A DNA stretch of 51,715 bases, taken from the NCBI RefSeq assembly GCF_003236385.1, contig NZ_POUA01000008.1:1-51715 (forward strand). The letters run 5' to 3'. Source of the DNA: Spongiactinospora gelatinilytica (GTDB lineage Bacteria > Actinomycetota > Actinomycetes > Streptosporangiales > Streptosporangiaceae). Under the pieces are notes generated by a model, which was given only the letters and a program-made list of their open reading frames with translations, was not told the DNA's origin and made no database searches. The translations under genes were made by a program, and so were the position numbers. Positions 7,532 to 29,372 of this stretch are shown here, piece by piece; position 1 is the first letter of the stretch, and every line of letters starts with the position of its first letter.

Positions 7532-9131
7532 CCTTGAGCTGGCCGGCTGAGGGATTCGGCTGGAGGTCGATTGCCCCGCTGCGGTCAGCGTGGATGCCCG
7601 GCTGTCGCGCCGGGTGGGCGGGTTCCACAGGCCCGCGGTTTCCTTTCCTCGTCGCGGGGGCGGTTGGGTGGTGGTCAGATCGGCGTCGGCAGGGCGTGCA
7701 GGCGTGCCAGGGCGGTGATGATCGGGCGGGGGCAGGGCCATTGCGCGGGGATGCGCAGGTGCAGGCGGCGGCCCCCGTGTACCAGACGGCCGGCGACAGC
7801 GAGGAGGCGGAGCCGCAGGCGTTTGGGCTCATAGCGGCCGGCGGTGGTGCCGTGCAGGGCGAGCAGTTGCATCCAAGCGGTGAGTTCGCAGGCCAGGGCG
7901 ACGATCTCGAGCCGGATCCGATTTTGGGAGAAGTCGTGCAGGGGCAGGTTGCGCAGGCCGGTGTCTTTGGCGGCACGGATGCGATCTTCGGCGCGGGCGC
8001 GGCGGCGGTGGCGAAGCTCCAGGTCGGCGGGTTGCCCGCCTCGGGTGCCGGTGACGAAGCAGGTGAAACGGTGCCCGTCGAGGTCGGTGACGCGCAGCTG
8101 GGCGCCGGGGTGCGGGCGTTCTTTGCGGACGATGACGCGCATCCCCTTGGGCCATCCGGTCAGCTCCAGCAGGCCGGTGAGCTCGGCGACCCAGGCACCG
8201 GGCCGCGGTCGGCGGTCGGCGTTGTAGGCGGGGGTCCAGGCGGTGGCCGGGAGCTTGTCGATGGCTGCGGCGATGGTGTCGGTGATGGTGTCGGTGATGG
8301 TGAAGCCGATGGAGTACTTCAGCCAGCGTCCGGGGCGGGTGAGCCAGGCGAGGAACTCGTGGGTGCCGCCGCCGGGGTCGGTGCGGATGAGGACGTTGCG
8401 CCGCAGGTGCTTGGGAAGCTGGGCCAGGGCGAGGCGGGTGGTCTCGATGTGGTCGGCGGCGGTGTTGGATCCGGCGTTGCCGGGTCGCAGCATCAGGGCC
8501 AGGGGCTCGCCTGCGCTGTCGTCCTGGTGGTCGGCGAAGGCGGTCATCGGGTGGAAGCCGTAGCTCTTCTTCCAGGTCGGTGCCGCGTGCTGCTTGTCGG
8601 AGTGAGAGACGACGATGGTGGCATCCAGGTCGACGATCACGGGCCGGCCGTCTGTTCCGGGGGCGCGGTCGCCGGCCAGGTGCCAGGCGCGTCGCCGTGC
8701 GGTGGCGCGGGCGGCGCGGATGGCCTTCAGTGCGCGGGCCTCATCGGCGGCGAGCCGGTCGATCAAGCGCGAGACGGTCGGGTCGGAGGCGACGGTTCCG
8801 AACAGCTCGGGCTGGGAGCGCAGCAGGGCGATGTCGGCCAGGCAGTCTCCACCGAGCGCCAGGGTAAGGGCCAGATCGGTGATGATCTTCGCGGGGTCGT
8901 GTACCGCTCGGCCGGGCCGCCACCGCTCCAGCTGTTGCGACAGGGTCTTGTCCAGCCCGGTGATGCGCAGCGTCTGGGACAGCAGCAGGCCACCGGCGTG
9001 TGAGACCAGCCCGCGGCCGTCGGCGGACACGGTGATCTTGCGGGGGTGAGGCGGTAGAGTTCACTCGGAAAGTGCCTTTTGATCTGGGTTGGACGGGGCC
9101 TTAGACAAGTCCGATCCTTCCAGGTCAAGGG
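7532..9131 (-). mobile_element. IS1380-family insertion sequence
   Basis: A 1.6-kb element with one transposase gene. Imperfect terminal inverted repeats can be seen: CCTTGAGCTGG at 7532-7542 and CCAGGTCAAGG (reverse complement CCTTGACCTGG) at 9121-9131. The size fits IS1380 (about 1.6-1.7 kb). No matching target-site duplication was visible in the flanks, so the copy may sit at a recombination joint. Confidence 0.7.
7675..9030 (-). CDS. IS1380-family transposase
   Basis: 451 aa, intact. Family features: LVSHAGGLLLSQTLRITGL at the N-terminus, LTLALGGDCLADIALLRSQP, SDPTVSRLIDRL, then the DDE core with VIVDLDATIVVSHSDK and IRTDPGGGTHEFLAWL, and a late KDTGLRNLPLHDFSQN segment. The start is GTG at 9030; the frame has a TGA a few codons earlier, so no longer start exists. 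It is probably able to transpose. Confidence 0.9.
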   Translation of the reverse strand: MSADGRGLVSHAGGLLLSQTLRITGLDKTLSQQLERWRPGRAVHDPAKIITDLALTLALGGDCLADIALLRSQPELFGTVASDPTVSRLIDRLAADEARALKAIRAARATARRRAWHLAGDRAPGTDGRPVIVDLDATIVVSHSDKQHAAPTWKKSYGFHPMTAFADHQDDSAGEPLALMLRPGNAGSNTAADHIETTRLALAQLPKHLRRNVLIRTDPGGGTHEFLAWLTRPGRWLKYSIGFTITDTITDTIAAAIDKLPATAWTPAYNADRRPRPGAWVAELTGLLELTGWPKGMRVIVRKERPHPGAQLRVTDLDGHRFTCFVTGTRGGQPADLELRHRRRARAEDRIRAAKDTGLRNLPLHDFSQNRIRLEIVALACELTAWMQLLALHGTTAGRYEPKRLRLRLLAVAGRLVHGGRRLHLRIPAQWPCPRPIITALARLHALPTPI

Positions 9132-9245: not shown

Positions 9246-10157
9246 TCAGCCGCGGGCAGGTGTGCGGAACACCTGGTGGCCGTGCCAGTCGATGTGATTC
9301 TGCGCGACCGCGTCCAGGCTGGGCTGGGGAGACCGGGCGGGCCGGCCCGCCAGGCAGAGCACCATGTCCAGGGCGGACTGCGAGCGGCCGACGAATCTGG
9401 CGGAGACGGTAATGGCGCGCTCTGTGGTCAGTCCGAGGACGCCCTTGTCGAACAGTTTGTGGTGGATGGCGCACAGGCACAGGCCGTTCGTCACGTCGTC
9501 GGGCCCGTCGAAGGCCCACCAGCGTACGTGCGCGGCGTCCAGGCCCACCACCGCGCCATCTAGCCAGCCGTCGTAGGAGCAGAACGCGCAGCAGTACTCG
9601 TACGCCATGAGCACCCGGTCACGGAAACCGGGGTCACGGCGCGCGGCAGGCGGCCTCTTGGTCGTCGCGGTGGTTTCGAGGGTCTCCAGGTCCAGGCCGG
9701 CCAGCAGGCACAGGTCGGTGTGCAGGGACGGCGCGAAGTTGGCGTCCAGGAGATATCGGGCCATCCGCCCCAGCAGGCCCGGCTCCTCCGCCAGCGCGCG
9801 GGCCAGGTCGGGATGCAGACGGCCGGCGGCCTGGCTCTCGCGCAGGCGACCCAACCCCGTACCCGGGCTGCCAGGGCCGTCGCGGGTGTCGACCAGCCAC
9901 AGGCCGTCGTTGGTCAGGTAGTGAAACGGGTAGCCGGGGCTGGTGTCACGCGGCGGGCCGTACTCCTTGAGCAGTGCCTTCAGCCCCGCCTCGGCGGCGC
10001 TGAACGGGATAGGAGCGTTGCCGTGCCGTTGGAAGTTGCCCAGGGCGTAGAGGAGAAGGAGCGGCTTGTGCGGTGCGCGCTCGCCGCCTCTGCTCCAGCG
10101 CCGGATCTCAGCGACCCGCTCGATCCAATCCACGATCGGCCAGTGTAGGACGATCAT
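9246..10157 (-). CDS. Probable phosphorothioate-dependent restriction endonuclease (SBD-HNH, ScoMcrA/SprMcrA type)
   Basis: A 303-aa two-domain protein. The N-terminal half shows the DNA sulfur-binding-domain signature: GGERAPHKPLLLLYALG (residues 24-40), then a YPFHYLTNDGLWLV segment (76-89). The C-terminal half is an HNH nuclease: CAFC (190-193), DAAHVRWW (208-214) with the first His, DVTNGLCLC (221-229) with the Asn, and IHHKLFDKG (231-239) with the last His. This architecture is that of type IV enzymes such as ScoMcrA and SprMcrA, which bind phosphorothioated DNA through the SBD and cut nearby. It lies alone, ~14 kb from a full dnd cluster. The gene looks intact; no strong ribosome binding site precedes the ATG at 10157, so the start could be a little downstream. 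Confidence 0.82.
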   Translation of the reverse strand: MIVLHWPIVDWIERVAEIRRWSRGGERAPHKPLLLLYALGNFQRHGNAPIPFSAAEAGLKALLKEYGPPRDTSPGYPFHYLTNDGLWLVDTRDGPGSPGTGLGRLRESQAAGRLHPDLARALAEEPGLLGRMARYLLDANFAPSLHTDLCLLAGLDLETLETTATTKRPPAARRDPGFRDRVLMAYEYCCAFCSYDGWLDGAVVGLDAAHVRWWAFDGPDDVTNGLCLCAIHHKLFDKGVLGLTTERAITVSARFVGRSQSALDMVLCLAGRPARSPQPSLDAVAQNHIDWHGHQVFRTPARG

Positions 10158-10780
10158 TCAGTCACGGCATACGTATCTCGCGTTGGCGGGCCGTACCCTA
10201 TGGTCGCCCGGTGAGCGGTCTTCAGCCGGGCGTCTATCAACATCTGCTCACTAGTGAGCCGGCCTGCTGCGTGCGATGTCCGATCGCGGCCTGATCGACC
10301 GGCGCTCCTGGGCCTCGCCGACTCCCACGAGACCCTGGCCCGGCACCTGGGCGCGGTTACGCCGCCATGCCCTGCGTGCCGTACGGAGCGGGAACGACGC
10401 GGTGCGGCGGGCTCGGCAGGTGGAGAGTGTCAATCGGATCGCCGACCTCCTCGGGCGACCTGGTGCCCGCGGGCCGCCACTTGCTCCTTTTACACAGCCA
10501 CAACAGGTAAGGTCCGGGGCTCGCCACTTGGCGACCGGCAGTTTTCCTATCAGCGGTCGGCTTTGTCCTCGGCTCTTCCCAGCGAGTGACTTCAGAGCGC
10601 TACGACAGCGCTGCAGGATCGAAGCCCCACATCCATTGGGTCGGTAGCTGCGGACAACTCTTGGGCGCAAATGGAGAGCGCGGATGGCGTGGACCATGGG
10701 CGAACTCCCACGGGTGCTCCAGCTGGCAGGTACGGTCATGACGACGCCTCATCAGCTCATTTGATCGCCTCTATCGTCCA
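10158..10780. other. 620 bp without a recognisable gene
   Basis: Open frames exist on both strands, but none has a ribosome binding site together with protein-like composition. The next readable coding text (DNA methylase piece) begins without its natural N-terminus, so this stretch is probably eroded sequence between the HNH gene and the methylase scar. No hairpin or repeat stood out. Confidence 0.4.
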
Positions 10781-11746
10781 TTGGACTATAGCGACTCTAC
10801 ACCTCAGCGTTACACTATGCGTACGGATCGTGGTTGCCGCGTGATAAAGAAGGCCGCGACGACTGGCGGAGCCGCTCTCGTTCTCGGCAGCATCGACGGC
10901 CGCTTCGCCGAGGACCGTGCCCTGCTGCCGTACGGGCGGAATCCTCGCTACGATCGGCATGCGATCAAGACGCTGGCCAAGGACTTCGCCGCTGACCTCA
11001 CTCAGTCCTTCGACGGTACGGCTACTGCTCTCTGGGACGATATGCTCAGCATCTGGAACGCCGTAGATGCTGGCAACAGTAACTGGGACGTGCCTGCCTA
11101 CAACGGCGGCCTGTTCTCTCGTGACTCACAGTCCAATCCATCCGGCGCGGCCCTAGCCGCCATGCGCCTAACCGACGCGGAGTTCGGCCCCGCTCTACGC
11201 GCCTTGCTAGTGGACACTGGCCCCGATGGCACCCAGGGCCCGGTGGACTTCCGCTCGTTGAGCGTTCGCGAGTTCGGCACCCTCTATGAAGGGCTGCTGG
11301 AGTCCTCACTGTCGATAGCACCGGGGCCGCTCAGCCTGAACAAGGATGGAGCCTTCGTTCCGGCGAATGACGACGAGCATGTCGAGGTTCTCGCTGGACA
11401 GGTCTACTTCCACAACCGCTCCGGGAAGCGGAAGTCGACCGGCTCGTACTTCACGAAGTCATTCGCGGTCGAGCACCTGCTGGATGCCGCTCTGGAGCCG
11501 GCGCTCGCCACTCATCTTGGCCGGGTCCGCGCGCTGCTGGAGGTTGGCGACGAGGCTGCGGCGGCCGAGCTGTTCTTCGACTTCCGGGTGGCGGACTTGG
11601 CGATGGGCTCGGGGCACTTCCTGGTGGCTGCGATTGACCGGATCGAGGCCCGGTTCACCGCGTTCCTCGCCGAGTACCCGATCCCTACCGTCAGCCACGA
11701 GCGAGGCCGTGGCCCACGCCCGCGCCCACTCGCCCTACTACCGTGA
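10781..11746 (+). pseudogene. Internal fragment of an Eco57I-like (type IIG) DNA methyltransferase
   Basis: The frame contains mid-protein parts of large class I N6-adenine methylase/type IIG enzymes: ALLPYGRNPRYDRHAIKTLA, VREFGTLYEGLLESSLS, VYFHNRSGKRKSTGSYFT and SAM motif I as DLAMGSGHFLVAAIDRIEA. Such proteins exceed 1,000 aa. Here the N-terminal few hundred residues and everything after AEYPIPTVSHE are missing, including the NPPF/NPPY catalytic motif. At about 11700 the sequence switches, in another frame, into a CoA-ligase gene. It is not functional as it stands. Confidence 0.8.
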
Positions 11747-12796
11747 GTTGTACCGGGCGCTGCCCGACGACATCGACGACCCGGCGCGGCTCCCGGTCAC
11801 CGGCAAGAAGGCGCTCATGGCGCGCTTCGACGACTGGGTCACCGACCCCGATGTGACCCTGGCCAAGGCCCGGGAGTTCGTCGCCGACCCGCCCTCGTGG
11901 GCAAGCGCTTCCAGGGGCGGTACCTCGTGGCCACCACGTCCGGCACCAGCGGGCTGCGCGGCATCTTCCTGCAGGACGAACGGAGCCTGGCCGTGGGCAA
12001 CGCGGTCGGGCAGCGCGCGCGAGCCGGGCTGGGGGTCGGCGATCTCGTGCGCCTCATGCGCGGAGCCGGTCGCACCGCCATCGTCTCCGCGCCGCCCGGC
12101 CACTTCTCCACCGTCGCCGGGGCCGTGCGGTTCCGGCGCGACCACCCGCGGCTCGGCTGGATGCTGCGGGAGTTCTCCATCCACAAGCCCCTGCCGCAAC
12201 TGGCCGCCGAGCTGAACCGGTACAACCCCAGCTCGCTCACCGGCTTCTCCAGCATGCTCGGGCTGCTGGCCGCCGAGCAGGAGGCCGGCCGCCTGCGCAT
12301 CCACCCGGGGATGATCATCGCCGGCGGCGAGGCGCTGACCGCGGAGAACCGCGCCCGGATCGCCGCCGCGTTCCACGCCCAGGTCCGCTCCGCCTACGCC
12401 GCCACCGAGTGCGGCTTCCTCGCGTACGGCTGCGCGCACAACTCGCTGCACGTCGACACCGACTGGGTGGTGCTGGAGCCGGTCGACGCCGACCACCGGC
12501 CGGTCCCGCCGGGGCGCCCTCGCACACGGTCCTGCTGAGCAATCTCGCCAACCGGGTCCAGCCGATCCTCCGTTACGACCTGGGCGACAACGTCCTGGTG
12601 CGGCCCGACGCCTGCCCGTGCGGCAGCCCGCTGCCCGCCGTCCAGGTGCAGGGCCGCGCGGCGGAGATGCTCGAATTCCCCGCCGCGCCTGCTGGCCGAG
12701 CACGGGGCCGAGCACGTCGCACTGGAACACGCCGAAGAGCCTCCGGAGCGGTCGGCCGGCGGCAAGTTCCGCAGGATCATCCACCTGGCCCCCTGA
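11700..12796 (+). pseudogene. PaaK-like AMP-dependent CoA ligase, 5'-truncated and frameshifted
   Basis: Homology to the phenylacetate-CoA-ligase-like adenylate-forming family is clear in pieces: VAHARAHSPYYRELYRALP, VTGKKALMARFDDW, then VATTSGTSGLRGIFLQDE (P-loop-like motif), SSLTGFSSMLGLLAAEQEAG, YAATECGFLAYGC, ILRYDLGD and the end GGKFRRIIHLAP. The pieces occupy different frames, with shifts near 11895 (one base lost between FVADP and GKRFQG), near 12518 and near 12690. The natural 5' end is absent because the gene is joined to the methylase fragment at ~11700. Three shifts argue for true decay, though GC-run sequencing errors could explain some. Confidence 0.78.
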
Positions 12797-12946
12797 CCGC
12801 GCCACGGTCCGGGTCAGGCGAACATGTTGGATCGCCGGCGGACACTACGGCAGGGTCTTGTACTGCAACAAGAAAGCGGAAAACTCTGACATACACCCCC
12901 CAACTGGACATCCATCCGTGCGACGGTGCAGGTGGAGGTGGTGGTG

Positions 12947-14719
12947 ATGCCCACGATTCCGCAAGCGTTCGAACAGGCTGCGAGGAGACACGGCGTGCCG
13001 GAGAACATCCTGCTCGCCGTCTCGTACATGGAGTCGCGCTGGGACTGCAACGGCGGCAGGCTCAGCACGGCGGCCGGGTTCGGACCCATGCACCTCACCG
13101 ACGGCGACGCGTCGAGCACCTCGCGGCGCCACCACGCCGACGGCCTTCCCTCCTCATTGCATACCCTGGAGCGTGCCGCCGAGCTGACCGGGGAGAGCAC
13201 CGAGCGCCTGCGCATGGACCCGGCCGCCAACATCGACGGCGGCGCGGCGCTGCTCGCCGACTACCAGCGCGCCCTGGGCGCCCCGCCGAGCGCCGATCCC
13301 GCCGACTGGTACGGCGCGGTGGCGCGCTACTCGGGCGCCACGGCCGAGGAGACCGCCGCGAACTTCGCCGACGAGGTGTACGAGGTCATCCACGAGGGCG
13401 CCACCCGGATGACCGATATCGGTGCGGAGGTGACGCTGCCGCCCTCTCCGGAGGTGCGGCCGTCCCGCTCCTGGCTGGCCAGGCTGGACCTGCCCCATCT
13501 GGCCCGCGCGGATGCCGTGGAGTGCCCCGGCTCGCTGGCCTGCGAGTGGATCCCGGCGGTCTACGTCGAACTGCCGGACGGCAGCTACGTCAACCACGAC
13601 ATCGCCGAGCGCCCCGACAGCCAGACGATTCACTACATCATCATCCACGACACCGAGGAGTTCTACGACGCGACGATCGGCCTCATCCAAAACCCGACGA
13701 GACCGGCGAGCTGGCACTACACGCTGCGCTCACACGACGGCCACCTCGCCCAGCACCTGCTCACCAAGGACGTCGGCTGGCACGCCCGCAACTGGTACGT
13801 CAACGCCAAGGCGATCGGCCTGGAGCACGAGGGCTTTCTCGTCGCCGGCGGCGCCTGGTACACCGAGGCGATGTACCGCGCGTCCGCCAAGCTCGTGGGT
13901 TACCTGGCCGGCAGGTTCGGCATCCCGCTGGACCGCGCGCACATCCTCGGCCATGACAACGTGCCCGGCCTGCTGCCGGCCACGGTGGAGAAGATGCACG
14001 AGGACCCGGGCCCGTACTGGGACTGGGCCCACTACTTCGACCTGCTGGGCGCTCCACTGCGCCCCGACGGCGACTCCGGCACGGCCACGGTCATGATCCT
14101 GCCCGACTACGACCGCAACCGTCCGCACTACATCGGCTGCGACAAGAAGCACCCCGAAACCGCCTGCCCGGCGCACGGGTCGGCCTCGATCTGGCTGCAC
14201 ACCGAGCCGCGCGAGGGGGCGCCCCTCGTCAAGGACATCGGCAAGCACCCGACGGGCGAGTCCACGTTCGGCGTGAAGGACCACGCCGCTCGCGCCGTCA
14301 CCGGCCAGCGCTACGTCGTCGCCGAGCGGCGCGGCGACTGGACCGCCATCTGGTACCTGGGCCAGAAGGCGTGGTTCCACAGCCCGGCGTCCGATCCCGT
14401 GGCCGTGCCCAGCCGCACCCGGATGGCGACGCCCCGGGCCGGCCTGAACTCCGTTCCGGTGTACGGCCGCGCGTACCCGGAGGCGGCGGCGTACCCGCCG
14501 GAGGTGGAGGTGCAACCGCTGGTCCCGTTGCAGTACACGTTCCCGGCCGGGCAGTCGTACACGGTGGGCCTGACCACGACCGGCGAGTTCTACAAGGCGA
14601 CGACCTTCGACGCCACGCAGCACCGGGTGGTCCGTGGCACCCAGGAGTACCACCAGATCCAGTTCGGCCACCGCGCCATGTTCGTCAGGAGCGAGGACGT
14701 CGTGGTGACCGAGACGTGA
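12947..14719 (+). CDS. N-acetylmuramoyl-L-alanine amidase with lytic-transglycosylase-like N-terminus
   Basis: 590 aa. The N-terminal part (about residues 5-165) resembles an SLT/lysozyme-like domain: AFEQAARRHGVPENILLAVS, YMESRWDCNGG, GFGPMHLTD and WYGAVARYSG. An amidase_2 zinc domain follows (about 225-345) with IIIHDTEEFYD, HARNWYVNAKAIGLEHEGF and RAHILGHDNVPG giving the expected histidines. The C-terminal part has SH3-like repeats (GKHPTGESTFGVKDHA; WTAIWYLGQKAWFHSP). It should cleave peptidoglycan stem peptides. The start at 12947 has GGAGGT six bases upstream. No signal peptide is visible, which is unusual for this family and may mean the 5' end was lost in the rearrangement just upstream. 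It converges with lanB (11 bp gap). Confidence 0.85.
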   Translation: MPTIPQAFEQAARRHGVPENILLAVSYMESRWDCNGGRLSTAAGFGPMHLTDGDASSTSRRHHADGLPSSLHTLERAAELTGESTERLRMDPAANIDGGAALLADYQRALGAPPSADPADWYGAVARYSGATAEETAANFADEVYEVIHEGATRMTDIGAEVTLPPSPEVRPSRSWLARLDLPHLARADAVECPGSLACEWIPAVYVELPDGSYVNHDIAERPDSQTIHYIIIHDTEEFYDATIGLIQNPTRPASWHYTLRSHDGHLAQHLLTKDVGWHARNWYVNAKAIGLEHEGFLVAGGAWYTEAMYRASAKLVGYLAGRFGIPLDRAHILGHDNVPGLLPATVEKMHEDPGPYWDWAHYFDLLGAPLRPDGDSGTATVMILPDYDRNRPHYIGCDKKHPETACPAHGSASIWLHTEPREGAPLVKDIGKHPTGESTFGVKDHAARAVTGQRYVVAERRGDWTAIWYLGQKAWFHSPASDPVAVPSRTRMATPRAGLNSVPVYGRAYPEAAAYPPEVEVQPLVPLQYTFPAGQSYTVGLTTTGEFYKATTFDATQHRVVRGTQEYHQIQFGHRAMFVRSEDVVVTET

Positions 14720-14729
14720 GCGCCCGCGG

Positions 14730-17681
14730 TCACTGGTGGGCGAGACCTTCGCGGGTACGGCGAAGGAGTTCCAGAACGCGGTGTTCGAGCTCGTGGCCGG
14801 TGCCGAGCAGGCGGTTGCAGTGCAGGTGCACATGGCTGCGGCACACCGCGGGAGAGGAGTAGGCGGACGGCAGGTTCCGGCGGCGGACGGCGAGCAGGGA
14901 CGTCAGGGCCCGGTCGTGCGGTGTCGTGCCGAGCGAACCCGGATCGCGCAGGAGCCGGCGCAACTCGCGCGAGCGCCTGCGATAGTCCCGGCCGCCGCCC
15001 GGTGAGGGGGAGACGCCGTCACGGTAGAAGCGCGTGCGCTGCTCGACGTCCAGCCCGAGGGCGTCGAGCAGGTCGTCGACGCTGAGCGCGGCCACGGTGG
15101 CCCGGTCGTAGGGAAATCCGTGGCTTCTGGACAGAGCGAGCAGACCGGCCACGGCCGGGCTGTCGGCGATGAAGACGCCCTCGGCGGCCGGCATGCCGGC
15201 AAGGCCGCCGTACCGCTCGATCTCGCGCTCGTAGGTGTCGAAGGCGAAGGTCGCGCACGCGCCCGTGGAGATCAGATCGGCCGCCCAGTCGCAGACGTGG
15301 CGCATGAGCGGGCCGAGCAGCGTGGCGGGGTCGCCGTGGAAGCGGACGCGCAGGTGCGGGTCGGGATCGGTGTAACGCAGGAAGAACCAGCCGTCGGCCA
15401 GCCCCGCTCCGGTGACGAACTGCCCGAAGGGGCGCAGCGAATCGACGATCAGCTCGTCCTCGAAACGGCGGGGGCCGTACAGCTTGAGGTAGAGCCAGTC
15501 GCTGCCGGGCGGCCGTACGCGGGCCCCGGCGGGCACGACGCCGGGGCTCCGGCGCCGCGGCTGGACGGTCCGTCGCTCCCTGAGCGCGAGCGGCACCACC
15601 ACCTCGCTGAGGTGGAAGCCCTCCGGGCCCGGCAGCCAGGCGTGGTCCGGGTGGGGCAGGGCCTCCTGGAGCAGAACGGGACGTCCTGGCGGTTCCTCGC
15701 GCAGCAGTCCGGCCTGCTCGGGGTCGTCCAGGTCGAGCAGCAGCCGGTTGTCGCCACCGGCCAGGTACACATGGCGCGGCACGCGGTGCGCCTGCCGCCA
15801 GGCGGCCGGGCCGCCCGCCCCGCGCAGGTCCGCGGGATCGACTCGCCAGCGGGCCAGGGACAGGACGGCGCGGCCCCGCTGGATCCGGGGCAGAAACGGA
15901 AGACCGGCGGCCGGCCCCCAGTCGAACGACGTGAACACGCACCGGCCGTCGCGGGCGACGTCCAGCAGGAAGCGGGCCGCCGGGGGCGCGTGCGATGGGT
16001 TGAGCATGTGGCACTGGGTGGCGACGACCTCCACGTCGCGTGCGGGCCACCGGACGGTGAACAGGCCGTCGCGCAGGCCCACGACCAGCTCGTCGACCGG
16101 TACGACCCACTCCTTCGCGAGGCCGGTGGAAGGGCCGAAACGGATCTCGTGGTGGTGCCCGCACCGGCGTACGGCGACGTTGCCGGAACGCGCGCGCTCC
16201 GGCGTGTAGACCACCTCCGCGAGGAGGCGGCCGGGCGCGTGCCGGGATTCGGCCTCCGCCGCCCGCGCCAGCGCGGTGGCCGCCGGGGGGCCGAGCAGAT
16301 CGGCGAAGCGTCCGAGGGTGCGCCCGGCCGCGTTCGCGCCCAGGTTCGGACCTACGACGAGCAGGAAGTCGCCCTTGTCCACGGCCTCGGCGCTGGGGGC
16401 CGCCACCAGGACCGCGAGGTCGAGGGTCGGCGGGGCCTGTGCGGCCGCCGGGGTCCAGGTCTGGAGGCGTTCCAGCAGGTCGTCGTCGAGTTCGACAACG
16501 GTCACCCGGTCACGGCAGGCGTTCACGGCCAGGTCGGTCAGCAGCCGGTGCCGGGTGGTCGGCGCGTGGACCTGGTCACCGCCGTCAGTGGGACGGCCCA
16601 GCCCGAAGTCCGGATCGACCAACTCCAGCAGCGGGACCTCGCGGCCCGCGCCGTAGCGCCTCTCGAACGCCCGGCGGCAGGCGTCGAGGTGGGGCGGTCC
16701 CGCGGGGTGCGGGCTCAACCGGAGCAGCACCTCGGCCGCGACCGCCGCCTCCGCCCCGATCCGCCTGTTCAAGCCGGTCCCGGACAGCGTCAGCGCGAGG
16801 TCCGTCTGGAGGAGGTTGCGCGGGTCGGTGGGGGACGCGATCGTGGTGATCCGGTCGAGCAGGCCCGGCCACGTACGGGCCCGTTCGTCGAGCGGGCGGG
16901 CGTCCCACTCCTGCAGGGCCGCGCGCAACCCGGCGAGGTCTTCTGCGACGGGGTGGCCGGCGAGCCGCTCCTGCACGTGGTCGAGGGGGTCGCGGGTGAG
17001 CGGCGGATGCAGATCGTGGTGCAGGAACCCTTGCCGGAGCAGGTCCTCGATCAGCCCGTCCGCCTTCTCCGGCGTGGCACCGGGGAGCGTGATCAGCGCT
17101 TCGACGAGCTCCGCGCGCGAGACGGGCGCACGGGCCAGGGCGAGGGCCCGCCGTACCGCCGAAGTGGCCCGCACGGAGGCCGTGCCGCCCGCCGGGAACG
17201 CCCGTCCGGCGCGGACCAGCACGGACGGGTCGGCCACCAGGCGCAGCCGGGTGCGGACCTCAGGATCGGCTTCGAGGTGCGCGACCAGGTCCGTGAGCCA
17301 GCCCAGGTCCGGGCGGGTACGGGTGCGCGTGCGCGGCTCCTGCTTGGCGAGGGCCAGGTCGGTGCAGTGTCCCCAGTCCGCCAGGGCGACGCCCGCGAAG
17401 AGGCCGAACGGGGTCGGCCGCGTGCTCATGCGGATGAGGTAGCGCAGCAGCTTGCGGCCGATCCTGCGAGCCTTGGGATGCCCGGGCTGCGTTCGCGCCA
17501 GCGCGGCGGCCAGATCGCCGCTCGCCACCTGGATGGCCGCCACCACCTCCGGGGATCCGGGCAGCAGGCAGCCCGGATCCGCCGGCTCACCCGCTCGCAC
17601 GGCGGTGTCCACTGGTAGGAGCGGGGCGCGCACCAGCGCCCAGTCCATCGGCGTGTACAGGCTCCGGTTCGCGCGGGTCAT
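14730..17681 (-). CDS. lanB: Class I lanthipeptide dehydratase LanB (full length)
   Basis: 983 aa. It uses glutamyl-tRNA to activate Ser/Thr of a precursor peptide and then eliminates glutamate to give dehydroamino acids. The N-terminal glutamylation domain (about 1-650) includes SLYTPMDWALVRAPLLP, RKLLRYLIRMSTRPTPFGLFAG and NLLQTDLAL. The C-terminal SpaB_C elimination domain (about 690-960) includes SDWLYLKLYGPRRFEDELIV, DGWFFLRYTDPDPHLRVRFH and the terminal CNRLLGTGHELE. Both domains are complete. The ATG at 17681 overlaps the lanC stop (ATGA), so synthesis is coupled. Most downstream gene of the RiPP operon. Confidence 0.93.
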   Translation of the reverse strand: MTRANRSLYTPMDWALVRAPLLPVDTAVRAGEPADPGCLLPGSPEVVAAIQVASGDLAAALARTQPGHPKARRIGRKLLRYLIRMSTRPTPFGLFAGVALADWGHCTDLALAKQEPRTRTRTRPDLGWLTDLVAHLEADPEVRTRLRLVADPSVLVRAGRAFPAGGTASVRATSAVRRALALARAPVSRAELVEALITLPGATPEKADGLIEDLLRQGFLHHDLHPPLTRDPLDHVQERLAGHPVAEDLAGLRAALQEWDARPLDERARTWPGLLDRITTIASPTDPRNLLQTDLALTLSGTGLNRRIGAEAAVAAEVLLRLSPHPAGPPHLDACRRAFERRYGAGREVPLLELVDPDFGLGRPTDGGDQVHAPTTRHRLLTDLAVNACRDRVTVVELDDDLLERLQTWTPAAAQAPPTLDLAVLVAAPSAEAVDKGDFLLVVGPNLGANAAGRTLGRFADLLGPPAATALARAAEAESRHAPGRLLAEVVYTPERARSGNVAVRRCGHHHEIRFGPSTGLAKEWVVPVDELVVGLRDGLFTVRWPARDVEVVATQCHMLNPSHAPPAARFLLDVARDGRCVFTSFDWGPAAGLPFLPRIQRGRAVLSLARWRVDPADLRGAGGPAAWRQAHRVPRHVYLAGGDNRLLLDLDDPEQAGLLREEPPGRPVLLQEALPHPDHAWLPGPEGFHLSEVVVPLALRERRTVQPRRRSPGVVPAGARVRPPGSDWLYLKLYGPRRFEDELIVDSLRPFGQFVTGAGLADGWFFLRYTDPDPHLRVRFHGDPATLLGPLMRHVCDWAADLISTGACATFAFDTYEREIERYGGLAGMPAAEGVFIADSPAVAGLLALSRSHGFPYDRATVAALSVDDLLDALGLDVEQRTRFYRDGVSPSPGGGRDYRRRSRELRRLLRDPGSLGTTPHDRALTSLLAVRRRNLPSAYSSPAVCRSHVHLHCNRLLGTGHELEHRVLELLRRTREGLAHQ

Positions 17682-18700
17682 GACAGGAGGAAGAGCCGAT
17701 CCCAGGCCGGTTCGACGTCTGTCGCCGCGGCCAGCAGCACCAGGACGACGCCCGCCGCGCCGTCCAGGACCCCGGCGCGGTCCACGGAGTTGCCCTGCGG
17801 CTCCAGCGAGGCGTACGCGAGCGGCCGTTCCGGCTGGTAGGCGGCCAGCAGCTCGTCTACGAGCTCGGCCGCCGCCTGGCGGAACAGGCCGGTGTCGCCG
17901 GCGAAGCGGAGCACGATGTGCAGCAGGCCGCTGACCCCGTGGCAGAACGTGGGCGACGGGATCGCGCGCAGTTCTGCCGGGCGGCGCAGGACGGCGTCCA
18001 TCGCCTCCAGCGCCACCTCGCCCAGGAGGCCGTCGTCGAGCGCCTGGGCCGCCAGCCACAGGGCGCGGGCGACCCCGGGGGTCCCGTAGCACCACGCGCT
18101 GCGTGAGGAGGCGGACCGGCCGGGCCGCCCCTCGCCGGTCAGCGGTACGAACGCGGGCCAGTCGTCCCCGGCACGGTGGGCGACCAGCCAGTCGGCGATC
18201 CGCCTGACGGCGTCCGCCTGGCCCGGTACCTCGATGCCCGCGCGCAGGGCGAGCGACAACAGGGCGAGCGGCCCCGGGATGCCGTGCGCGAGACCGCAGT
18301 CCAGAGCGCCGTGCGGGTGCAGCCGCGACATCGTCTCGTCGCCCATCAGGTGGGCGGGCGTCATCCAGGCGGGCGGCTCCTGCTCCCGGGCGAGCGTCAC
18401 GAGCCCTGCGAGGATCTCCGGGAGGATCCCGTGCGGGTCGTGCGTCAGCAGGTGGGCGCCTACCCCGCAGGCTCCGGAGATCAGGTCGAACGCGCTCACG
18501 GGGCCCGGCTCGCGGGTTTCGCCGAGCCGCCTGCCGATCGCCGCGGCGAGGGGTGCCAGGGCGTCGTCCAGCGCGGCGAGCATCCGCCGGTAGCGTGTAC
18601 CGTCCCGGCGCAGGTGCCCGGCGTCACGCAGTCTCCGCCGCCCGCCGCCGTCGGCTCCTGGCAGTCGTGATCGCGGGTGTCGGTCAGGCCCGGGATGCAC
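17678..18700 (-). CDS. lanC: LanC-like lanthionine cyclase, apparently shortened at the N-terminus
   Basis: 340 aa. It catalyses addition of Cys thiols to dehydroamino acids. Zinc-site motifs are present: WCYGTPGVARAL (Cys) and FCHGVSGLLHI (Cys-His), along with FDLISGACGVGAHLL and GLAHGIPGPLALL. Class I LanC proteins are usually about 400-430 aa; here recognisable homology begins only at RYRRMLAALDDALAP, so roughly 80-90 N-terminal residues appear missing. The first ~40 codons (VHPGPDRHPRSRLPG...) do not look LanC-like and are read in another frame by the precursor-like gene. The GTG at 18700 does have GAGGAG six bases upstream. Activity is plausible but uncertain. Confidence 0.85.
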   Translation of the reverse strand: MHPGPDRHPRSRLPGADGGGRRRLRDAGHLRRDGTRYRRMLAALDDALAPLAAAIGRRLGETREPGPVSAFDLISGACGVGAHLLTHDPHGILPEILAGLVTLAREQEPPAWMTPAHLMGDETMSRLHPHGALDCGLAHGIPGPLALLSLALRAGIEVPGQADAVRRIADWLVAHRAGDDWPAFVPLTGEGRPGRSASSRSAWCYGTPGVARALWLAAQALDDGLLGEVALEAMDAVLRRPAELRAIPSPTFCHGVSGLLHIVLRFAGDTGLFRQAAAELVDELLAAYQPERPLAYASLEPQGNSVDRAGVLDGAAGVVLVLLAAATDVEPAWDRLFLLS

Positions 18701-19074
18701 TGACCGCTCCTCGACCGGCCGAACCGCACGTCGAGGTCGAACTCGTCGAGAGGGCGGCCCGTCCGAGTTCTGGTGAACTCCACCATCGCGTCGCGGCGCA
18801 GGGACACCTGGGTGGCCTCCTCGCCGCGGAACGGCTCCTCGTCGCGGGCGACCGTGGTCATGTCGATGACGTCGCCGGTGCTGAACTCCGCGTAGTAGTC
18901 GAGTGCGCGCGTGAAGTACAGCCGCCGGTGGTCCGGCCGGTCGCTGTCGCCTAGAAAGCCGGTCATACGCAGAACCGCCGCCGGCGCCTGCGCCGGATCG
19001 GGCCGCCCCCTCTCCACGATCGGGTCCTGCGATCTGCCGGCGCTTCCGGGTGCTGTCTCATCCTCGTCGGGCAT
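18496..19074 (-). CDS. Candidate FxLD-type lanthipeptide precursor (long leader), 3' end overlapping lanC
   Basis: The frame starts with ATG at 19074 (AAGGAG upstream). A leader-like region of about 110 residues includes LYFTRALDYYAEFSTGDVID and EEATQVSLRRDAMVEFTRT. Then comes FDLDVRF (112-118), matching the F-x-L-D motif of class I lanthipeptide leaders recognised by LanB. After it lies a Cys/Thr/Gly-rich candidate core: GQCIPGLTDTRDHDCQEP, GGGDCVTPGTCAGT (about 124-157). The frame has no stop until 18496, well inside lanC, so the true C-terminus is unclear. Either the two genes overlap by ~200 nt or a deletion fused the core region to lanC. Identity as precursor is an inference from motif, composition and position. 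Confidence 0.6.
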   Translation of the reverse strand: MPDEDETAPGSAGRSQDPIVERGRPDPAQAPAAVLRMTGFLGDSDRPDHRRLYFTRALDYYAEFSTGDVIDMTTVARDEEPFRGEEATQVSLRRDAMVEFTRTRTGRPLDEFDLDVRFGRSRSGQCIPGLTDTRDHDCQEPTAAGGGDCVTPGTCAGTVHATGGCSPRWTTPWHPSPRRSAGGSAKPASRAP

Positions 19075-19138
19075 CGCCTGCGCTCCTTGACGTCCGCGGT
19101 TACCGGGTCGCCGGGGCGTGGGCCCCGCGACCCCTTGA

Positions 19139-20701
19139 TCAGCGCTCCAGCAGGGCGCCCAGGCGGCGGCCGGACTCCTCGACCATCGCCCGTACCATCT
19201 CGGCGACGGTCTCCTCCGGCCTGTGGGGCACGGGGCTCAGGAACGCGGCGGGCGGCACCGGGCCTAGTGCCCGCAGCACCAGGTTCCTCGTCCGCAGGAA
19301 TGCCTCGGCACTGTCGCGGAACGACGCCCCCGAGGATTCGAGCTCGGTGAGCACCCTGTCCTGGTCCTGAAGCTCGTGCCCCTGACCGCTCGGCTCGCCG
19401 GTCGCGGCCAGAACGGCGAGGCAACCGCTGATCTCCTGCCTCGCGGCACTCCGCAGGTCGGCGGCGTCCTCATCGGCGCGTCCGGCGTCCGGCCGGGACA
19501 GAGCCCTCCGGATCGTGTCCGCTTCACGCTCGTACAGGTCGAGCACGAGGTGCGCGTACGCGCCCTCCGGCGCGGGCGACGGGTCGAACGCCTCGTTGAT
19601 CCCGCCCAGCCAGCGCAGGAAGAGCCGGCCACCGGCTCCGAGCCGTTCCGTATGCCGGCCGAGACGGTGAAGGAGGTACTGGGCCCGGTCGAAGGACCGC
19701 CTTGCCTGCCGGGCGGGATCCGCGCCGGTGATCGGCCCGTACCGGTCGGCCAGTTCCTCGTGCCTCGCGGCCACGGTGGAGTGGAACAGCGCCAAGGTGG
19801 TGTAGACGTGGCTGACGGTGAGGGCACGATCGAGCGGCCAGCCCTCACCCGCCTCCGGCCTGGCCCTGTTCCAGTGCGGACGGATCAGCGGCGACGCCGC
19901 CGCGTCGTAGTCCTCGTCCAGCAGGGAGTGGGTGTGCTCAAGGTCGGTGAACTTGACGTGCATCGCCTCGTGAAGGAGATACTCGGCGGCCTGCCACGCG
20001 TCGCCCAGCACGGCGGCCGACAGGAAGATCACCCCTGGAATGCGGGGATGGGTGAGCGACGCGAACCCGGGCGACGCAGGGCCGGACGACAACTCCTTGC
20101 CGGCGACGACGACCAGGTGCACGTGGCTCAGCGCGCTGGGCGCGAGCATGGGGCACAGCTCGTGCAGCAGTTCCGCACCCCGCAGGAGCGTCTCGCACAG
20201 GCGGCCCTCAGGGTTCGTTAGGGTGAGCCCCTCGAAGCTCGCGGAGAAAACACGGCGGAAGAACTCTCCCAGCGGGTCCACCTCCGCCCGAGGCTCGGAC
20301 CACACCCACGTGCCCGCGGCCTCGTGCAGCCTCACCAGGTCCGCGGCGCCCTCGGCCAGCGGCGGCACGGTCGCGCGAAGACCCTGAGCCGCCGCGGTCT
20401 CCAGAACGGTGTCCAGCTCCTCCTCGGGCCAGGGCAGCCCACGGCCGCCGCGCACGGCGCTCAGCCAGGTGTCCGTCGCCACCCGCACCGCCGGGTCGCC
20501 CAGCACCTGATGGTGCCGGTCGCCGCAGGCGTCCTCCTGTGCGGTGAGCAGCAGATGCGCGCCCTTGGAGTGCTCCTTGAGGAGGAGCAGGCGGTGGCGG
20601 TAGTGAAGGCGGGCGCGCTGACGGATGTAGTCGCAGTCGCCGAACGGGCGGTCGCCAGCGAGGATCTCCTCCATCTGCCGCCTCGCCTGAGTGGTGTTCA
20701 C
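19139..20701 (-). CDS. HExxH-motif putative peptide-modifying enzyme (aKG-HExxH-type peptide beta-hydroxylase family)
   Basis: 520 aa from the GTG at 20701 (VNTTQARRQMEEIL). The diagnostic feature is EYLLHEAMHVKFTDLEH, whose HEAMH (about residues 244-248) supplies metal ligands, followed later by LYEREADTIRR-type helices. The family was defined as a HExxH-containing putative peptide modification protein found beside RiPP precursors. Some members are iron/2-oxoglutarate-dependent beta-hydroxylases. Here it lies between a 61-aa peptide gene (8-nt gap upstream) and the FxLD precursor-like gene (~64 nt downstream), in one operon with lanC and lanB. Its substrate is presumably one of these peptides; which one cannot be told. 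Confidence 0.8.
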   Translation of the reverse strand: MNTTQARRQMEEILAGDRPFGDCDYIRQRARLHYRHRLLLLKEHSKGAHLLLTAQEDACGDRHHQVLGDPAVRVATDTWLSAVRGGRGLPWPEEELDTVLETAAAQGLRATVPPLAEGAADLVRLHEAAGTWVWSEPRAEVDPLGEFFRRVFSASFEGLTLTNPEGRLCETLLRGAELLHELCPMLAPSALSHVHLVVVAGKELSSGPASPGFASLTHPRIPGVIFLSAAVLGDAWQAAEYLLHEAMHVKFTDLEHTHSLLDEDYDAAASPLIRPHWNRARPEAGEGWPLDRALTVSHVYTTLALFHSTVAARHEELADRYGPITGADPARQARRSFDRAQYLLHRLGRHTERLGAGGRLFLRWLGGINEAFDPSPAPEGAYAHLVLDLYEREADTIRRALSRPDAGRADEDAADLRSAARQEISGCLAVLAATGEPSGQGHELQDQDRVLTELESSGASFRDSAEAFLRTRNLVLRALGPVPPAAFLSPVPHRPEETVAEMVRAMVEESGRRLGALLER

Positions 20702-20709
20702 CGGGCGCC

Positions 20710-20895
20710 TCAGCGCGGGGGCCCGGAGTCGTACATGGCGGCGCAGTACAGGACGGGGCATCTGACCCTGGCCGTGCCTGCGGCTCCCTCGTCCTTGTCG
20801 CACAACGCTCTCAGATCGTCCTCGGAGAGCTGGCTCTCGACGATCTCTGCTTCGGTGATGCGCAGGACCATCGGCCCCTTGATGTGCTGGCCCAT
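20710..20895 (-). CDS. 61-aa peptide, candidate RiPP precursor
   Basis: Starts MGQHIKGPMVLRITEAEIVE at an ATG with GGGAG six bases upstream. The N-terminal 35 residues are acidic and helical (EAEIVESQLSEDDLRALCDK), like many RiPP leaders. The C-terminal part has two more Cys and ends CPVLYCAAMYDSGPPR. It is first in the operon, immediately before the HExxH gene. Few Ser/Thr are available for lanthionine formation, so if it is a precursor it may be the hydroxylase substrate instead. A small accessory protein is the alternative. Confidence 0.5.
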   Translation of the reverse strand: MGQHIKGPMVLRITEAEIVESQLSEDDLRALCDKDEGAAGTARVRCPVLYCAAMYDSGPPR

Positions 20896-21501
20896 CGGTA
20901 CTCCCACTCAGCGGGCTCATCGGATCGATGCTTGTCCTGCTCGAAGTCGGGCAAGCGAGAACCATCGGCTTCTCCAAGGTTCTTCCACCCGGACGCGGGC
21001 CATCATGGCTGCTTGCCGGTGATCAGGCAGAGACGTTGCGCGGTGGCGAGGGAAGGAGACGGCCAGGATCGCCGTCACATCCGAACGGGAGCCGGGCCGC
21101 GGGTTTCGACCGTGTCAACGCGGTCGACCTGCCCGGCATCTTGACGTGCCAAAAGCACGAACTGCGGGTGCCTTCAACGGACGTGTCACCAGCCGCAAAC
21201 GAGGGCTACAGGCGCGGTCACCGGACGATCCGACCCGCCGGGGCGTTGAGTAACGTGTTGCAAAGTCGAGTGTTCAACAACTCCGACAGCACCCGTTTCT
21301 CTACGCCGAGAGGATGAACGCGGCTCCCGAACCTGCGCCCGGACGGCGTCTCGCCCGGGGCTTTGCTCACGGTCACCCTCCCCCCGCTGCGCCCCGACGG
21401 CCGGTCATGCCCCTGGTGCAGCCGGGGGAGAAGCCGCCGGTGAGTTCACCGCGTTCCCTGGTGGGACGCCGCTTCAAGGCTCGCTCGGCGAGGACCCGCC
21501 G
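20896..21501. other. 600-bp upstream region of the RiPP operon
   Basis: No convincing gene on either strand. The leader and promoter of the RiPP operon should lie in the first few hundred bases (reverse strand); TTGAAC near 21275 could be a -35 element but no matching -10 was clear. The stretch 21320-21500 is GC-rich, low-complexity coding-like debris preceding the resolvase fragment. Confidence 0.4.
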
Positions 21502-23137: not shown

Positions 23138-23306
23138 GCTTCTATGGCTTGTCAAGAGAGCACGGGCGATTCGGCTGCTGGTGCCTGAGGGCGGACGATG
23201 ACCTTGTAGAGCTGGCGGGCGACGTATCGCTTCAGACAGCGGATGATCTCTCTCTTGGAGAGCCCCTCGGCGGTCCTGCGCTCGACATAGGCGCGGGTGG
23301 GTGGGC

Positions 23307-23403
23307 CGCAGGACATGCGTGACAGCACGACGACGTACAGAGCTCGATTGGCCTGCCGGTCGCCGCCATGGTTGAGCCGGTGGCGCCGCGTTCTGCCGCT
23401 GGA
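23307..23403. repeat. 97-bp perfect direct repeat inside IS110 transposase, copy 1
   Basis: Runs from CGCAGGACATGCGTGACAGC to TTCTGCCGCTGGA and is identical to 23553-23649. This is the natural position in the C-terminal domain. Confidence 0.93.
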
Positions 23404-23552
23404 AGCAGGGACGGGCGACACCCCGCACAGGGCCGCGAACGACCCCTCCGAGCTCAGCCGCTCCGGATTGTCACCACATGTGACCGGTAGTTGTGCAGCG
23501 GTCTCAACACCCACGCCCTTGATGGCCGGCAACTCGGGCCGGGCCTGCTCAT

Positions 23553-23649
23553 CGCAGGACATGCGTGACAGCACGACGACGTACAGAGCTCGATTGGCCT
23601 GCCGGTCGCCGCCATGGTTGAGCCGGTGGCGCCGCGTTCTGCCGCTGGA
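23553..23649. repeat. 97-bp perfect direct repeat inside IS110 transposase, copy 2
   Basis: Second identical copy, 246 bp from the first and in the same reading frame. It occupies the place where the central region of the transposase should be. Confidence 0.93.
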
Positions 23650-24079
23650 TAGGGCGGCACCGTAGGAGCCGGTACCCTCCACCCCCACCGCCTGTAGCCG
23701 GCCGAAGGAACGCATCCACTCCAGTAGGTCCGCATATCCCGCTCGGGTCGCTGAAAACTCGCGATCGGCGACCCTGCGCCCGTTCATCAGCACCACTGCG
23801 GCGTGGTGCGTGTCGGCATGGGTGTCGACCCCGCCCACGATCCGTCGCGCCTTGGGCTTCTTGAACTCCGTCATGTGCACCCTTATCGGCTGGGCGATAT
23901 CCGAAGGCGGTGCGCGCCGGGGTGGCCGAGCAGGCAGACCAGTGACGGGACGGGTTCTCTCGTCGAGGTTTCTATCAAGCCATACACCGGCCGGCCCGAC
24001 ACACACCTTCGGGAGTGCTCCCCCGGGAAGAGGCGACAGATCGTGCCGATGGCACCAGGATGCCCGGGCCAGGTAGAAC

Positions 24080-24166
24080 AAGGGTCAGCCTCAGGGAGGA
24101 ACACTTCCTGCCTCTGCAACTTCATCAGCAGCAGCAGTGATTCCCGATAGCACCAGTCTCACTGAT
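24080..24166. repeat. 87-bp direct repeat, copy 2 (flanks IS110 remnant)
   Basis: Matches 23052-23137 almost perfectly. Read forward it gives VSLREEHFLPLQLHQQQQ and a stop, so the repeat may be a duplicated gene end. Confidence 0.9.
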
Positions 24167-24367: not shown

Positions 24368-24745
24368 CTAAACAACAACAATCTTTATCAGATCATCCAC
24401 GGAATTAAGGTCACGTCGTCCCGCCAGATACCCAATGCCGCGATGCAAATGCGTGATGAGAGTCCTCCCGCAAGCTTCTTCGGTTGGTTCGCTGCCATCA
24501 CGCAGACACCGGGATCTGATCAACGCCACATATATGTCTCCGCAAGCTCCAGCGAAGGTTCGCCAAGACATCTCGATGTTGGAATCGGTAACAACGTCGC
24601 GCACCAGCGGGGGCGTTTCGTCCTGCAAAGATACAGCTAGAGCCCAGCGGCACAGGACGTTCCAGTTCTTTATGCCAGTGACTCGTTTGAGCTTGATCAG
24701 CTGATCCTTTGCCGGTTGGGACAACCGGATTGTATCAAGCGACAT
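24368..24745 (-). CDS. dndE: DNA phosphorothioation protein DndE
   Basis: 125 aa starting MSLDTIRLSQPAKDQLIKLK, the typical DndE opening, followed by TGIKNWNVLCRWALAVSLQD and a C-terminal TLITHLHRGIGYLAGR. DndE is a small DNA-binding member of the sulfur-modification complex with DndC and DndD. It overlaps the end of dndD by 11 nt and is the last gene of the operon, with a hairpin just behind. The length is normal. Confidence 0.88.
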   Translation of the reverse strand: MSLDTIRLSQPAKDQLIKLKRVTGIKNWNVLCRWALAVSLQDETPPLVRDVVTDSNIEMSWRTFAGACGDIYVALIRSRCLRDGSEPTEEACGRTLITHLHRGIGYLAGRRDLNSVDDLIKIVVV

Positions 24746-28233: not shown

Positions 28234-29372
28234 CGCTCTCCTCGCTGGTAGGCGTCTTCTGCCTGCTGCTCATCGGCAGTCAGTTCGAGACCGAGCTGCT
28301 TGCGTAGATAATTCACGGTAAGTACGACGTTTTGGTGATTCTTCGAGACACGGCCACCGATGATCGCACGTCCCTCCCAGTCAGGATTGGTCCGCGACCA
28401 GTCCACATCTCGAAGCGGCGCCAGCCGCGGCTTCCACGCCTCTGGATCAAGGGAACCGCGAAGTAGTGTGTTTCCGAGCAGCCCTAGCGCGTGAAGGGCG
28501 ATCCCATGCGTGTGTAGGTACTGCTTGCGGATCTCGGAGGCGGAGAGAGATCGTCTCCGCACTTCTCCCCAGTCCGGGATGAGTGCATCTATAGCTTCCC
28601 AGTAGTCCCACGGCAGGCGTTCCCCGTCCTTGCCGCTAGTCAGCTCCAGCCCTTGTAGAAGGGCACTCATCGCCGAGTACAGGGCGCTGAGCGTGAAGAG
28701 CTTGCGCGATCGAGCTGAGAGGTTGCTGCTCTCCATTTCAACGAAGTTGCGGAACACCGGGCACTTCAGCGCAAGGAGCCGCGTCAGCTGTGAGAGCTCA
28801 TCCCGATGGTCGTAGAGGACTCCAATGGAACGGGCCGGCCGCACAGCATGGCGGTTCAGGTCAGCGAACATCTGCTGGCTGCGCTCGAGGCCCGCGTCGT
28901 GGAAGAAGACGACAGCGATGGTCTCATCACCGAGTGATGGGTTCTCTTTGAGTGCCGCCTCGATAGCTGCACGTCGGTGCTGGCCGTCATTGATCAAGAA
29001 GCGCGAGGCCATCGGGATGTGCAGCTGACCGACCCGCAACCCTGGGCCTTGGTCCGCCACGCCCACGAAGCGCATGGAGCCATCGACGGAGGCGGTTAGC
29101 GCAGAAAAGACGTAATCGTCAGGGTTCTCCAGGATGTACTGCGCGAGTGCTGGAACTCGTCCCTTGTTCAGGACTCGCTGCGCTCGAACCTCCGGCGCTA
29201 GCTCATCCTCATCGAACAAAAAGATCTTGGGGATGAGGCGCAACGGACACATCGATACGTAGTACTCACGTCCTGCCTGCAAACCGCGGATAGCCGGGAA
29301 GATGTACTCGAAGCCCGCAGTGGTGGCGCCCCCACCTTGCTGCACCAGCGCATGTGATCCCACGTAGTCCAC
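28230..29372 (-). CDS. dndB: Dnd regulator DndB
   Basis: 380 aa from a GTG at 29372 (VDYVGSHALVQQGGGATTAG). DGQHRRAAIEAAL and FADLNRHAVRPARSIGVLYDHRD are hallmarks of the DndB/DGQHR-domain family. In Salmonella DndB represses the dnd promoter by binding inverted repeats; a similar role is likely here. The gene diverges from dndA with ~45 bp between starts, the place for shared control. Upstream in-frame extension exists but would run through dndA, so the GTG is chosen. It is first of the dndBCDE operon. Confidence 0.9.
   Translation of the reverse strand: MDYVGSHALVQQGGGATTAGFEYIFPAIRGLQAGREYYVSMCPLRLIPKIFLFDEDELAPEVRAQRVLNKGRVPALAQYILENPDDYVFSALTASVDGSMRFVGVADQGPGLRVGQLHIPMASRFLINDGQHRRAAIEAALKENPSLGDETIAVVFFHDAGLERSQQMFADLNRHAVRPARSIGVLYDHRDELSQLTRLLALKCPVFRNFVEMESSNLSARSRKLFTLSALYSAMSALLQGLELTSGKDGERLPWDYWEAIDALIPDWGEVRRRSLSASEIRKQYLHTHGIALHALGLLGNTLLRGSLDPEAWKPRLAPLRDVDWSRTNPDWEGRAIIGGRVSKNHQNVVLTVNYLRKQLGLELTADEQQAEDAYQRGER

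Follow-up and report, generated by a model that had tools for sequence, protein, structure and literature searches.

The 51,715-nucleotide stretch of Spongiactinospora gelatinilytica DNA analysed here (the window) carries the gene of a compact phosphorothioate (PT)-dependent nuclease, built from a sulfur-binding domain (SBD) and an HNH domain, together with a complete dnd modification cluster. The nuclease belongs, as a typical member, to the known EcoWI/SprMcrA-type family, and from its sequence and predicted fold we infer that it binds and cleaves PT-DNA. Its coexistence with dnd genes is about as frequent as expected by chance across the genomes surveyed. In the laboratory, a PT reader and a PT writer together kill the cell; genomes combine the two about as often as chance would, across several genera of actinobacteria, including cases in which specificity residues suggest a shared GGCC context. 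There is perhaps an even chance that the window protein is a stand-alone PT-dependent enzyme, gained separately from a Nonomuraea-like donor and tolerated through weak or rare activity at the sparse PT sites of its host. Natural strains that hold both systems make the escape of a host from self-cutting directly testable.

Identity and predicted fold of the nuclease

The SBD-HNH gene is an open reading frame of 303 amino acids with an ATG start at 9246–10157 on the reverse strand (window numbering), and its GC content at the three codon positions (0.71/0.51/0.88) is that of coding genes of this DNA. The NCBIfam model NF045808, 'phosphorothioated DNA-binding restriction endonuclease', matches residues 10–298 over profile positions 2–284 of 284 with 327.9 bits (cut-off 180, E=4.4e-98). 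A Pfam search found HNH_2 (39.5 bits, cut-off 21) and no SBD match at E≤0.01; the SBD assignment is based on the NCBIfam match, on PDB profile matches and on the predicted fold. Profile searches of solved structures returned TagI as well as the ScoMcrA and SprMcrA SBDs.

An AlphaFold2 model was built from 25 homologues (mean pLDDT 79); in a model from 22 close homologues the HNH half had stayed unresolved, which the wider alignment cured. In the fold comparison, where unrelated structures begin near Z 8, the N-terminal half of the model superimposes on the ScoMcrA SBD (5zmo) with a Z of 17.5 and an r.m.s.d. of 2.8 Å over 151 residues, and on the SprMcrA SBD with a Z of 16.8. The second half matches the HNH domain of TagI (6ghs; Z 14.1) and has a beta-beta-alpha arrangement. 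The layout is an SBD (residues ~8–162), a linker (~163–173) and a zinc-ligated beta-beta-alpha HNH domain (174–300). An SRA domain is absent, since a protein of 303 amino acids whose SBD and HNH lie about 10 residues apart leaves no room for one, and Pfam gives no match to it. The DUF262 NTPase and DUF1524 HNH domains of SspE/DndI-type proteins were likewise looked for; Pfam shows HNH_2 only and the N terminus has the SBD fold.

The SBD signature, GGERAPHKPLLLLYALG, spans residues 24–40. The sulfur cavity of ScoMcrA, formed by H116, R117, Y164 and P165, is represented by H30, K31, Y76 and P77, and R117K ScoMcrA still binds (PMC6224610). The HNH active site is intact (H210, N224 and H232/H233), and a C190-x-x-C193 motif supplies two cysteines that are probable zinc ligands of the domain. 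Cavity and HNH residues are kept in ~95% or more of 111 homologues, and the HNH residues with C190-x-x-C193 in nearly all of them. The initial annotation had read a sulfur-binding-domain signature and this HNH site from the letters alone and had proposed structure prediction against the ScoMcrA and SprMcrA SBDs as a check; the profile and fold matches bear out the signature, and the catalytic positions are as it gave them.

Two outlying groups of relatives were encountered. In a divergent subgroup (L026, L027, L028 and L106; 47–49% identical to the window protein), an HNH histidine is replaced by arginine and three of the four members also have substituted cavity residues; these proteins are perhaps no longer PT-dependent nucleases. 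EcoWI-like SBD-HNH genes also lie on viral or proviral contigs (L251–L268), their products mostly 32–42% identical and with Met before the cavity proline. To judge from these contigs, PT-dependent nucleases also travel with phages.

The dnd-Pbe cluster and the DNA between the loci

The dnd cluster comprises DndE, DndD, DndC and DndB with a divergent DndA, all in open frames. On the reverse strand, dndE (24368–24748; TIGR03184, E=5.5e-32) occupies part of a listed reading frame that runs to 24928, its family match starting at about residue 67. There follow dndD (24735–26738; PADLOC DndD, E=5e-217, matched also by PbeC-like models, E=1.8e-241), dndC (26710–28233; TIGR03183, E=4.3e-210), with the specificity loop GYPAP-KPK-FRW of predicted GPSGCC-like type, and dndB (28230–29627; TIGR03233, E=7.3e-160). 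The true start of dndB probably lies downstream of the annotated one, because the TIGR03233 match begins only at residue 106. The divergent cysteine desulfurase gene dndA is on the forward strand (29354–30604; PADLOC SspA, E=1.3e-130, and DndA, E=5e-124). Beyond it, again on the reverse strand, lie a dnd-associated putative methyltransferase (30591–32039; TIGR04096, E=1.9e-148), dnd-associated protein 4 (32056–32532; TIGR04062, E=1.3e-26), which from its position is possibly a PbeD/DndE-like member, a PbeC-type (CxC) ABC ATPase (32529–34598; PADLOC PbeC, E=2.5e-182) and PbeA, a fusion of HKD/PLD nuclease and SF2 helicase (34798–36930; PADLOC PbeA, E=1.6e-240; PLDc_2, ResIII). A 642-amino-acid protein of the Pbe operon (36927–38855, reverse strand) matches Sigma70_r4 (E=1.6e-8) and, below cut-off, HARE-HTH (E=1.3e-4). 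PADLOC gave no match to this sigma-like protein; it has a relative in G327 and weaker relatives in Streptomyces. The arrangement of DndA–E with PbeABCD, or CxC ABC ATPases, has been described (PMC6459918, PMC10853773).

Position 10157 of the nuclease reading frame lies 14.2 kb from the dndE reading frame at 24368, and an operon or tandem link between it and the dnd genes was rejected. Between the two loci lies a stretch of genus backbone (11702–21110) with 94–97% nucleotide identity to a congeneric genome (G001:C7:55725–65855). The tracts to its left, with the nuclease, and to its right, with dnd, do not align to that genome, and neither SBD-HNH nor dndC was found in the congeneric genomes G001 and G002. 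Since genus backbone separates the loci and congeneric genomes carry neither, the simplest and likeliest reading of the sequence is that nuclease and dnd cluster were probably gained in two separate events, although G001 could instead have lost or rearranged both. The initial annotation had placed the nuclease in the same region as an intact dnd cluster, some 14 kb from active-looking modification genes. Distance and completeness hold, and the dnd genes appear both intact and subject to selection (dN/dS 0.04 for DndC, 0.08 for DndD); 'same region' stands only as proximity, as genus backbone divides two apparently independent acquisitions. Within the backbone, a full-length LanB-type dehydratase (14730–18095, reverse strand; Lant_dehydr_N, E=2.6e-160) suggests a lanthipeptide or thiopeptide cluster.

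The closest relatives of the nuclease (82–88%) occur in Nonomuraea, mostly in genomes without DndC, and the genomes with the closest dnd relatives (G178, G181 and G192) lack the nuclease. Values of dN to Nonomuraea are 0.013 for DndC, 0.057–0.097 for SBD-HNH and 0.094–0.100 for gyrB. DndC is thus nearer the Nonomuraea copies than gyrB predicts; SBD-HNH diverges faster than gyrB within Nonomuraea, so that the low dN of the window copy stands out. Conservation continues upstream of the nuclease gene, where a tract that includes the truncated start of a divergent gene (10158–10478, reverse strand; blastn) is 80–86% identical to N. turkmeniaca, Nonomuraea sp. PA05, Nonomuraea sp. NEAU-A123 and N. 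jabiensis and ends at 10478. Several Nonomuraea carry, divergently oriented to SBD-HNH, a gene for a PLD-SF2 helicase-DUF3427 type IV enzyme of SauUSI-like architecture, which is full length in Nonomuraea sp. NEAU-A123 (L113:6860–9925, reverse strand; PADLOC mREase_IV); the window retains only its start, at ~10270–10478. In L112, the PLD part of the divergent neighbour runs into TniQ-like sequence.

Mobile elements and remnants lie in or beside these tracts. An IS1380-like transposase gene (7675–9030, reverse strand; Pfam DDE_Tnp_1_4, E=1.5e-82) adjoins the nuclease gene, a type IIG restriction-modification fragment (10781–11746, forward strand; PADLOC REase_MTase_IIG, E=9.2e-73, profile 376–642 of 1378) sits beside the backbone junction, and a partial match to an IS110-like transposase (23152–24081, reverse strand; NF033542, 110 bits, cut-off 140) borders the dnd tract on the left. 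The source genome is a draft of 957 contigs with 4% contamination, of which the window is one whole contig, and this, with the IS elements close to the junctions, would suit an assembly artefact that joined DNA from different organisms. We nevertheless consider such an artefact highly improbable: the 9.4-kb stretch between the loci is 94–97% identical to the congeneric genome, no second full copy of the IS-bearing stretches occurs in the assembly, and the same combination recurs in other assemblies, in G270 on a single 9.6-Mb contig. A contaminant contig is also less likely because the same contig holds the congeneric backbone.

Coexistence and tolerance

Among 341 genomes of the host family, DndC was above cut-off in 24, SBD-HNH in 102 and both in 10; SBD-HNH was present in 10/24 genomes with DndC versus 92/317 without. 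Among 392 Streptomyces genomes (the genus of Streptomyces violascens JCM 4424), 18 had DndC above cut-off. Thirteen of these were counted as dndA–E clusters, 11 seen directly and two (G634 and G578) by DndC subtype, and SBD-HNH was found in 2/13 of them versus 116/379 others. Treating every DndC match as a PT system was rejected: the other five Streptomyces genomes encode DndC-like proteins (>600 bits) without a GYPAP loop (L236, L238, L246, L247 and L248), no homologues of dndA, B, D or E were found within ~10 kb of these genes, and the five were excluded from the 37 dnd-cluster genomes. They possibly belong to a different DndC-containing system.

Pooled, NF045808 proteins occur in 12/37 dnd-cluster genomes versus 208/696 others (odds ratio 1.13, 95% CI 0.56–2.28; raw counts, kinship ignored). 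Coexistence is therefore close to the chance expectation; strong avoidance is excluded and mild avoidance lies within the confidence interval. The pairs spread over at least seven genera of the family and Streptomyces, and include Nonomuraea turkmeniaca DSM 43926, Planobispora siamensis NBRC 107568 and Actinoallomurus purpureus KCTC 19541. Cavity and HNH residues are intact in 9/10 family genomes with both systems, the exception being G342, in which the cavity proline has become Ala and H210 Arg. Among the Streptomyces copies, that of G636 is of a divergent Met-Pro type. As assembled, frames are broken in two genomes, in dndD of G198 (L099:6816–8781) and dndC of G070 (L109:13090–14254), both with the nuclease; the dndD break belongs to N. 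dietziae DSM 44320. Broken dnd frames in 2/10 genomes with the nuclease versus 0/14 without (p=0.16) are a weak hint that coexistence carries a cost.

In the window and G270 the two loci lie <25 kb apart, beyond chance by position (P ~0.001), as expected from the clustering of defence genes. A survey of ~3000 neighbourhoods found a dnd gene no more than four genes away in <3.6%, and its authors had in 2020 already raised coexistence with dnd of another context and listed the same explanations (PMC7461809); the genome-wide count and the loop comparison below are additions to the published accounts that we found.

The initial annotation had posed keeping both systems as self-toxic unless the enzyme's sequence context differed from the host motif or the gene was silenced. 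The question of toxicity is a real one, as ScoMcrA co-expressed with S. lividans dndA–E kills the host (PMC3009677). The implied rarity disappears in the counts above. The specificity loop of DndC reads as TRS for GAAC/GTTC, TQN or NQT for GATC and R-x-K/R for GGCC (PMC12193691). The K-P-K of the window DndC fits R-x-K/R except for Lys in place of Arg at the first position, and all 37 DndC proteins of the dnd clusters examined have R/K-x-K/R, GPSGCC-type loops. The host motif is accordingly predicted to be GPSGCC, with the first-place Lys outside the published pattern. On the reader side, the window SBD has a Tyr-Pro cavity like those of the GPSGCC-binding ScoMcrA and SprMcrA, and Y76 is equivalent to the ScoMcrA tyrosine that makes base contacts in the complex with GPSGCC. 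Loop 34 of the SBD is basic, a feature that accompanies broad PT recognition and is shared with the broad SprMcrA, and an SBD homologue of S. gancidicus binds all three contexts. These known specificity residues give no sign of a different context, although the base-contact loop does differ.

In characterized enzymes (ScoMcrA, SprMcrA and EcoWI) the SBD captures the Rp sulfur and the HNH domain cuts nearby, and PT fills a small share of its sites, 10–15% in S. enterica. The window protein would likewise be a PT-dependent restriction enzyme of type IV (type IIM-like) that works alone. Its SBD, at the N terminus, would take the Rp sulfur into the H30/K31/Y76/P77 cavity, and the C-terminal HNH domain, with H210, N224, H232/H233 and the probably zinc-binding C190 and C193, would cut some bases away. 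The enzyme may guard against incoming PT-marked DNA and newly arriving dnd islands. Horizontal transfer from a donor akin to Nonomuraea would have brought it in, independently of the dnd-Pbe cluster, and its activity at the host's sparse PT sites would be too weak or too rarely expressed to kill, by way of base-contact-loop preference, affinity or expression level, with neither gene damaged. Tolerance is the least certain part of this account; our preferred explanation is that the sparse host sites are cut weakly or conditionally, with context mismatch and regulation as close rivals that overlap with it. The KPK loop, the Tyr-Pro cavity and basic loop 34, with the broad binding of the S. gancidicus homologue, speak for a clash and not for an escape, as do the lethality of ScoMcrA with a GPSGCC-type dnd system in vivo and the hint of cost in the broken frames.

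A context mismatch, by which the host's PT sites would be invisible to the enzyme, is a tentative alternative. The characterized compact SBD-HNH enzymes EcoWI, Ksp11411I, Bsp305I, Mae9806I and Sau43800I favour GPSAAC/GPSTTC, and EcoWI restricts GPSGCC plasmids only weakly. All 37 DndC loops are GPSGCC-type, and an enzyme that reads GAAC could therefore coexist safely with any of them; the KPK loop is itself a variant, and the base contacts differ from those of SprMcrA (HGD versus T100-G101-L102). Yet Y76 matches the base-contacting tyrosine of ScoMcrA, where enterobacterial EcoWI-like proteins have Met, and basic loop 34 predicts broad affinity. No loop 34 or base-contact residue separated dnd-coexisting copies from others (9 versus 38, low power). 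It is unlikely that actinobacterial SBD-HNH nucleases read the very context that their own Dnd writes and survive by some self-protection; if they do, a PT-dependent enzyme can coexist with the mark that it targets, contrary to the incompatibility of ScoMcrA.

Equally tentative is the alternative that the nuclease is intact but off, or that dnd is off through DndB repression, except under phage attack. The cluster does carry DndB, which is known to repress dnd operons, the nuclease gene has a truncated divergent neighbour and an adjoining IS element, and tight regulation has been invoked for Bsp48385I, the one enzyme found beside dnd genes by the authors of PMC7461809. Silencing by damage was not seen in the SBD-HNH gene: the open reading frame, its start and ~320 bp upstream are conserved with the Nonomuraea copies, and purifying selection persists, dN/dS versus those copies (0.18–0.24) being as among them (0.13–0.24), most of which live without dnd. 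A functional partnership, in which SBD-HNH would be a PT-sensing effector of Dnd-Pbe that takes PT as 'self', in the manner of SspE or DndI, seems very improbable. PT-sensing HNH nucleases that live with PT do exist (SspE and DndI), dnd neighbourhoods are reported to include SRA-HNH proteins that have a PT-reading domain (PMC10853773), and the loci are close in the window and G270; but the protein has no NTPase or DUF262 domain, its presence is independent of dnd, its closest relatives live mostly in genomes without dnd, genus backbone divides the loci, and defence-gene clustering accounts for their proximity.

Relation to known systems

The closest counterparts are the compact SBD-HNH enzymes of NF045808 (EcoWI, Ksp11411I and Bsp305I; PMC7461809), which have the same SBD-HNH order and a length of ~300 amino acids, and which share with the window protein the KPxxLL and PF-L-W signature, the CxxC zinc motif and HNH. 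Identity to enterobacterial EcoWI-like proteins is 33–36%, and Tyr precedes the cavity proline where those have Met. SprMcrA of Streptomyces pristinaespiralis (PDB 7cc9/7ccd/7ccj) has the SBD fold, Tyr-Pro cavity and basic loop 34 of the window protein; its Tyr31/Gln32 are replaced by His/Lys, its base-contacting HGD by TGL (near T100-G101-L102, by alignment), and its catalytic residues are reportedly H-N-R rather than H-N-H. ScoMcrA (PDB 5zmm/5zmn/5zmo) likewise shares the SBD fold, an equivalent cavity and an HNH domain, whereas its SRA domain and acidic loop 34 set it apart from the window protein, in which SRA is missing and loop 34 basic. As for the writer, the contig holds full DndA–E and homologues of PbeA and PbeC, which ally the cluster with DndABCDE plus PbeABCD (CxC ABC-ATPase) systems. 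The window's version is bacterial and includes DndB, the TIGR04096 methyltransferase-like gene and the sigma-like/HARE-HTH gene, and the SBD-HNH gene stands outside its operon.
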